A stretch of 64,000 bases of DNA. Origin: Branchiostoma floridae (lineage: Eukaryota > Chordata > Leptocardii > Amphioxiformes > Branchiostomatidae). The translations under genes were made by a program, and so were the position numbers. The notes beneath the pieces were generated by a model. That model searched no databases and was not told the DNA's origin. It saw only the letters and a list, made by a program, of their open reading frames with translations. The first letter of the stretch is position 1; every line of letters starts with the position of its first letter. The DNA is taken from NCBI RefSeq assembly GCF_000003815.2, contig NC_049988.1, forward strand, positions 3,571,971-3,635,970. The letters run 5' to 3'. Of the stretch, positions 26,281 through 49,827 are shown one piece after another.

Positions 26281-26516
26281 CTAATATGTGTCATCTTCGG
26301 CAGCGGGGCCGTCAATACCTCCAGCCTTTCCACTCATATCTGCCATGTCCAAGTCCACCATGCTGTCATCTACGACTGTCTTACGGCGGCGTTTTGGACT
26401 GGTCAGCAGGCAGACAGTCCCCACTATCAGGACAGTAGCCACAACAGCACAGCCGACACACAGCAGACTGAGGTACAGGGGGTTGTTGTACCACAGCTCG
26501 CCATTGGCAGTGGTGG
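26281..26516 (-). CDS. VWDE-like gene last exon: transmembrane helix and tail
   Basis: Acceptor ATTAG before 26516, stop TAG at 26281-26283. The helix is about [19 protein letters not shown], followed by the stop-transfer PKRRRK. The short acidic tail ends EDDTY. Type I orientation. Confidence 0.87.

Positions 26517-49827: not shown

Follow-up and report, generated by a model that had tools for sequence, protein, structure and literature searches.

Vertebrate VWDE proteins contain a D8C domain, and a D8C domain placed before the VWD domain defines VWDE. In the membrane mucins MUC3, MUC12, MUC13 and MUC17, an EGF domain stands beside the SEA domain, and the neuronal pentraxins, CRP and SAP are short proteins. 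ADGRG6/GPR126 and ADGRG4 are not known to have D8C, VWD or a row of EGF domains. The sequence-only reading of the present DNA took VWDE proteins to be secreted and supposed them to lack a pentraxin domain and a SEA-transmembrane end; the secreted state agrees with the excerpted text of PMC9117669, where VWDE is also said to act in blastema growth. The SEA site of MUC1 is cut by autoproteolysis, according to a passage of PMC6954182. As for lancelets, odd domain combinations have been ascribed to gene-prediction errors (excerpts of PMC4967905 and PMC6071037).

In the present study, we analyzed a stretch of 64,000 nucleotides of the Branchiostoma floridae genome (C10:3571971-3635970, hereafter the window) and searched the genome (513.4 Mb in 431 contigs) for related loci. 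Twenty-seven minus-strand exons between 49827 and 26281, rebuilt from splice sites and frames, join in consistent phases without an internal stop and end with a TAG at 26281-26283 (Table 1). With the corrected exon 22 (see below), the chain has 1896 codons, the split first codon and the stop counted, or about 1895 residues. The order of domains is pentraxin, D8C, VWD, EGF repeats, a Ser/Thr/Pro stalk, EGF, SEA, a transmembrane (TM) helix and a tail, and we consider it likely that this is a single gene for a type I membrane protein. The joining of 27 exons in one phase, claimed previously, was thus reproduced; what did not stand was the start of exon 22 (28368, not 28446, a use that we infer from the earlier count of 27). 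The exon 49827-49589 enters in phase 1 with no ATG ahead, and hence it is not the first coding exon.

Table 1. Features of the predicted gene in the window (positions from the first letter of the window)
Feature	Position	Strand	Remarks
Pentraxin domain, first half	49589..49827	-	enters phase 1, leaves phase 0; 73% aa identity to C10:296056
Pentraxin domain, second half	48659..49061	-	phase-1 donor GTAAGTG
D8C domain exon	46702..47133	-	D8C_UMOD 8.5e-11; 67% identity in paralogue
Short linker exon with Cys	42623..42682	-	paralogue counterpart
Exon between D8C and VWD, without Pfam match	41693..41979	-	paralogue donor seen by eye
Exon between D8C and VWD	41285..41374	-	paralogue counterpart
Exon between D8C and VWD	39730..40092	-	43% identity in paralogue; no blastn match
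VWD exon 1	39342..39418	-	Pfam VWD; paralogue
VWD exon 2	38284..38347	-	Pfam VWD; paralogue
VWD exon 3	36745..36966	-	Pfam VWD; paralogue
VWD exon 4	35620..35822	-	Pfam VWD; paralogue
Post-VWD exon	34158..34620	-	paralogue
Furin-like site RRKR before S	34404..34415	-	paralogue: RSRR before S; putative cleavage
Exon with teneurin-like EGF	33392..33766	-	just under Pfam cut-off; paralogue
Post-VWD exon	33023..33283	-	paralogue
Cys-rich exon	32735..32849	-	paralogue
Big_9-like segment (below Pfam cut-off) and three EGFs by eye	31787..32395	-	paralogue
cbEGF exon, phase 1-1	31463..31582	-	Pfam; paralogue
cbEGF exon, phase 1-1	31074..31196	-	Pfam; paralogue
EGF exon, phase 1-1	30471..30584	-	Pfam; paralogue
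cbEGF exon, phase 1-1	30176..30298	-	Pfam; paralogue
Last cbEGF exon, phase 1-1	28994..29110	-	donor GTAATT, also in paralogue
Exon 22, stalk mini-exon, 16 residues, corrected start	28321..28368	-	paralogue alignment, acceptor score
Non-exon: intron with acceptor pyrimidine tract, false signal peptide	28370..28435	-	almost wholly missing from paralogue alignment; no blastn match there
Stalk mini-exon, 19 residues	28139..28195	-	paralogue
EGF exon before SEA	27670..27789	-	EGF profiles below cut-off; paralogue
SEA exon 1	27406..27536	-	Pfam; paralogue acceptor by eye
SEA exon 2	27030..27264	-	Pfam; paralogue
GSVIV, SEA self-cleavage motif (predicted)	27178..27192	-	GSVI[V/I] in 6/6 loci translated
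Last exon: TM helix (~26404-26478), KRRRK stop-transfer, tail, TAG	26281..26516	-	paralogue

The Pfam search, for which the chain was split in two parts, matched all five domains named in the sequence-only reading: Pentaxin (4.6e-35, profile positions 2-190 of 194), D8C_UMOD (8.5e-11, chain residues 266-357, ahead of VWD), VWD (1e-8, residues 636-799 of the chain given), EGF_CA (6e-22, five stretches after VWD) and SEA (7.7e-13); an NCBIfam scan of the tail gave no match. In the pentraxin domain, the His of the pentraxin signature H-x-C-x-[ST]-W-x-[ST] is shifted by one position. Aligned to human CRP, the domain keeps N61, Q139, D140 and Q150, four of the seven calcium ligands of CRP, while Asp replaces E138 and E147 and Gln replaces D60. 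A furin-like site follows the VWD domain both in the window gene and in its paralogue, and the chain may be cleaved there. The two mini-exons of the stalk encode 35 residues, of which 13 are Ser, Thr or Pro, without repeats, and the long Pro/Thr/Ser-rich repeat region of transmembrane mucins was not found. Thus, of the mucin-like membrane stalk proposed previously, a short Ser/Thr/Pro stalk stands, and "mucin-like" was an overstatement. The GSVIV motif of the SEA domain is one position off the strict wording GS[V/I]VV in the excerpt of PMC10687090.

The genome search with the 297-residue tail as query gave 30 matches, of which the closest outside the window are at C10:333729-339236. They belong to a paralogue (C10:296056-339239, plus strand) in which the parts from pentraxin to TM are found in the same order on one strand. 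Nucleotide similarity placed 24 of the 27 exons and protein similarity the other three. In the paralogue, both AG and GT flank 20 internal exons, whose length is unchanged in 18 cases, and the AG of the last exon is present as well; as any GT up to 12 bases away from the expected exon end was accepted, the GT evidence taken alone is in part built into the method. Indels caused three more exons to be mis-set, and the splice sites of these were identified by eye. Between the window gene and the paralogue, dN is 0.089 and dS 0.469 (24 exons, mis-set ones included). Because exons and splice sites recur in the paralogue and dN is well below dS, the chain is more than a chance product. Even the last exon, whose acceptor is weak (-2.93 bits on a home-made score trained on the other exons), has its AG kept there. 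The dS values are uneven along the gene, 0.73-1.61 from the D8C exon to exon 34620 versus 0-0.47 from exon 33766 to the end, a pattern suggestive of a gene-conversion tract that spans the EGF-SEA-TM half (window 33766-26281 versus C10:328372-339239). The pentraxin exons have dS of 0.72 and 0.55, somewhat under the 0.97 of the D8C exon.

As for the missing first exon, a strict scan of 49850-64000 (ATG exon, very hydrophobic start, fair phase-1 donor) gave no candidate, although a signal peptide that is short or divided between exons would escape it, and the upstream stretch of the paralogue showed conserved blocks with no clear ATG exon. Two such blocks upstream of the pentraxin exons, 50409-50244 and 50881-50813 (71% and 80% conserved in the paralogue), are possibly promoter or 5' UTR. 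Several other features were observed in or near the window. A 912-codon open frame with leucine-rich repeats (LRR_8, 3.4e-25) and a hydrophobic start lies at 9859-12594 (minus strand) and is like an intronless Toll-type ectodomain, with no TIR match at E 0.001. A collectin-like gene with collagen-like repeats (1.7e-7) and a C-type lectin exon (5.9e-14) lies at 17604-21521 (minus strand), and a reverse-transcriptase frame at 18351-20825 starts, by eye, with the apparent first part of a lectin domain. Further reverse-transcriptase frames are at 43138-45135 (minus strand, 6e-40), inside the intron 46701-42683, and at 56475-57716 (minus strand, 7.5e-27). Just past the right end of the window, a D8C exon in the opposite orientation (C10:3639132, plus strand) is 51% identical, and C6:15477462-15501081 has 13 VWD matches of nearly equal scores, 1933-1957 bases apart, a tandem VWD array.

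The SEA-TM end is not confined to the window gene and its paralogue. At loci on C5, C9 and C16, VWDE-like exons are followed by SEA-TM, with 23-78% identity per matched stretch. Nine of the 30 tail matches cover the second SEA exon, and for seven of these nine places, a D8C place lies on the same strand no more than 45 kb upstream (35 D8C places counted, fragments of one D8C taken once). About 0.0015 would be expected per place, a value that is not a probability, as the loci are related to each other. One of the two misses is C9, which has relatives of the VWD region and the EGFs and no matched D8C. The other is on C12, where about 28 kb of upstream sequence gave no hit to the VWDE part below E 0.01; thus, the SEA-TM end can exist without the VWDE part. 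The EGF before SEA lies about 430 bases past the last cbEGF at C5 and C9, and one mini-exon was made out by eye in each of these gaps (DLPPTDPPIKRST and DLQPTDPLSS); the C16 junction has a longer gap and a Thr-rich mini-exon. No signal-peptide exon was noticed at these three junctions on an unsystematic inspection. All six SEA domains translated contain GSVI[V/I], and the TM segments of these six loci share a WY..PL start. The SEA profile of Pfam matches the second SEA exon in five of the five other loci (3.5e-8 to 0.0017), in one of them over the curated cut-off. Three more loci at C10:12.23-12.34 Mb have D8C and SEA places in line, as seen from table rows only. Thus, the window gene is in a family of VWDE-like SEA-TM loci, five of them read (window, paralogue, C5, C9 and C16) and three outlined. 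The remaining tail matches include TM-only places elsewhere and one first-SEA-exon match at C16:2883007. These related genes elsewhere in the genome argue that the SEA-TM tail is not a prediction error.

The sequence-only reading joined a pentraxin front and a SEA-TM end in a single gene; the co-linear paralogue agrees with this, as do the further loci for the SEA-TM end. It also named two introns where the chain might fall apart. A break in the intron 42683-46701 finds no support in the paralogue and in C5, where the D8C exon is followed by VWD-EGF-SEA-TM exons, and neither does one in the intron 47134-48658 in the paralogue, which keeps the pentraxin-D8C order. A third place, considered here, was the junction before exon 22, where two genes were first expected because of a signal-peptide-like start, the worst acceptor and documented lancelet fusion errors: a VWDE-like gene would end near 28994, followed by a small gene of the order signal peptide-EGF-SEA-TM that starts at ATG 28435. 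The stretch from this ATG resembles a signal peptide and has a strong donor, and the acceptor at 28446 scores -6.58 bits, the lowest of the 27, a score reached by 1125 of the 1273 AG sites in the region. Fused neighbours are a lancelet annotation error documented in a passage of PMC4967905, once with the signal peptide of the downstream gene; the variant poly(A) hexamers TATAAA (28694) and CATAAA (28631) are present, and C12 has EGF-SEA-TM with no VWDE match found nearby. However, the paralogue alignment overturned this initial reading from ATG 28435 and the poor 28446 acceptor. In the paralogue, exon 22 is present between a CTAG acceptor and a GTAAG donor, whereas the ATG and nearly all of the hydrophobic stretch are absent; therefore, exon 22 is 28368-28321, and the acceptor before 28368 scores 5.30 bits, which 80 of the 1273 AG sites reach. 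As judged from the alignment, the "signal peptide" arises for the most part from in-frame reading of the pyrimidine tract of the exon 22 acceptor. Pyrimidine-rich acceptors can mimic signal peptides in this way, and a similar stretch stands ahead of D8C in the paralogue. Two other places on the minus strand have ATG frames that are just as hydrophobic and possess a donor, and in divergent loci the VWDE and SEA-TM parts remain side by side, about 430 bases apart in two of them. A terminal exon sought in 28994-28440 gave short candidates only, and neither AATAAA nor ATTAAA occurs there, a weak point, as 570 of 1213 stretches of the same size lack both. Two genes at this junction are thus very improbable. 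Read-through of the donor at 28994 to a stop at 28935 would give a secreted form in addition to the membrane form, and the paralogue has a counterpart of the 19-residue tail (28993-28935) and of its stop position, GNYRTLAIYLPYLTIFCNV. However, the two loci have begun to diverge only recently in this region (dS 0 to 0.47 from exon 33766 onward), so that similarity alone says little, and no canonical poly(A) signal lies downstream before 28440; we regard two such products as quite unlikely.

For the single gene preferred here, the joint between pentraxin and D8C deserves the same scrutiny. In the paralogue, the pentraxin exons (C10:296056 and C10:296510; 73% and 71% identity) lie upstream of its D8C. 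All four copies whose end was read (window, paralogue, C10:288 kb and C4:5.06 Mb; judged by eye in the three relatives) have a phase-1 donor after the second pentraxin exon, and the D8C acceptor is in phase 1 in both copies (window and paralogue). The pentraxin thus looks like a symmetric phase 1-1 module that splices onward, D8C being the next phase-1 exon found. This splice rests on two paralogues and fitting phases, which is good evidence and not proof, and it is possible that two neighbouring genes were copied together. The pentraxin exons 49827-48659 would then be separate or joined elsewhere, and the VWDE-SEA-TM gene, with a signal peptide of its own, would start at 47133 or further upstream. 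Of the 35 D8C places, only those of the two close paralogues have a pentraxin place on their strand in the 45 kb upstream; the other 33 have none. No pentraxin place was found on C16, where the stretch read stopped short of its D8C, and none closer than 100 kb to the C5 or C9 locus. A close relative of the pentraxin at C4:5061181-5061968 has no D8C place found adjoining, and behind the one at C10:287801-288651 the paralogue's own pentraxin stands before the next D8C. Against separate genes, a donor and not a stop follows the pentraxin in each of the four copies, though the C10:288 kb match holds one TAG, and the next phase-1 exon found downstream is D8C, in an order kept in the paralogue. Of the ATG frames in the 1525-base intron, the two with the highest hydrophobicity (47922 and 48622) have a poor phase-1 GT or none, whereas a less hydrophobic, acidic ATG frame at 47390 has a fair one. 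On balance, a pentraxin separate from the VWDE-SEA-TM gene is unlikely. The exon pair at C10:287801-288651, an extra one with a phase-1 donor, lies 8 kb upstream of the paralogue's pentraxin and has one stop per match; the paralogue may carry two pentraxin domains.

The architecture of a single gene is well supported, and the following function is proposed from sequence. The protein would consist of a presumed signal peptide, pentraxin, D8C, VWD, the furin-like site, EGFs, the stalk, EGF, SEA, one TM helix and a short tail. The pentraxin domain might bind calcium-dependent ligands at the cell surface, and the SEA domain would cut itself at G|SVIV during folding, the halves being held together non-covalently, so that force or binding could release the ectodomain as a soluble recognition protein. 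The surface receptor or shed defence protein suggested previously would fit the GSVIV motif and the TM helix, and cleavage, shedding and ligand binding are all putative. However, similarity does not in itself argue for a defence role, as the best PDB matches are neuronal pentraxins and the His of the signature is shifted. Lying behind VWDE-like exons in several divergent loci, the SEA-TM end passes a test that prediction errors should fail. A membrane-tethered and shed VWDE-like form would bear on how VWDE might act between cells, and a large surface protein seemingly gained its pentraxin here in the form of a phase 1-1 exon pair. Tentatively, lancelets may have a family of self-cleaving membrane VWDE-like proteins (five read, perhaps at least eight) with one branch of pentraxin-armed sheddable receptors, and the secreted vertebrate VWDE could be an anchor-less descendant, a speculative view that we hold to be possible rather than probable.

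In the literature searched, nothing was found linking Branchiostoma with VWDE, and neither this search nor related ones found an architecture of pentraxin, VWD, EGF and SEA among the matches listed. Like VWDE, the window gene has VWD and then EGF repeats, with D8C in front. However, VWDE belongs to a secreted class as described in the excerpt of PMC9117669, whereas the window gene has a pentraxin front and a SEA-TM tail. Such a tail is present in the window gene and in other loci, in place of the secreted state without a TM segment that marks VWDE; because of this tail, we use the label "VWDE-like" and not VWDE. According to passages of PMC6954182 and PMC10687090, ADGRG6/GPR126 and ADGRG4 combine pentraxin and SEA in one membrane protein, as here, but they are seven-helix GPCRs with a GAIN domain; the SEA domain of human GPR126 has a furin site, and ADGRG4 is described in these passages as having no GS[V/I]VV site. 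MUC1, MUC3, MUC12, MUC13 and MUC17 have SEA before TM with a GSV-type site, as in the window gene. In contrast, SEA-type membrane mucins have a long Pro/Thr/Ser repeat region, in place of which the window gene has its stalk of 35 residues. The neuronal pentraxins, CRP and SAP share the pentraxin domain (best PDB matches NPTX2, 3.3e-32; NPTX1, 7e-29; CRP, 9.1e-23), but in these proteins it is not the head of a long multidomain chain, unlike in the window gene.
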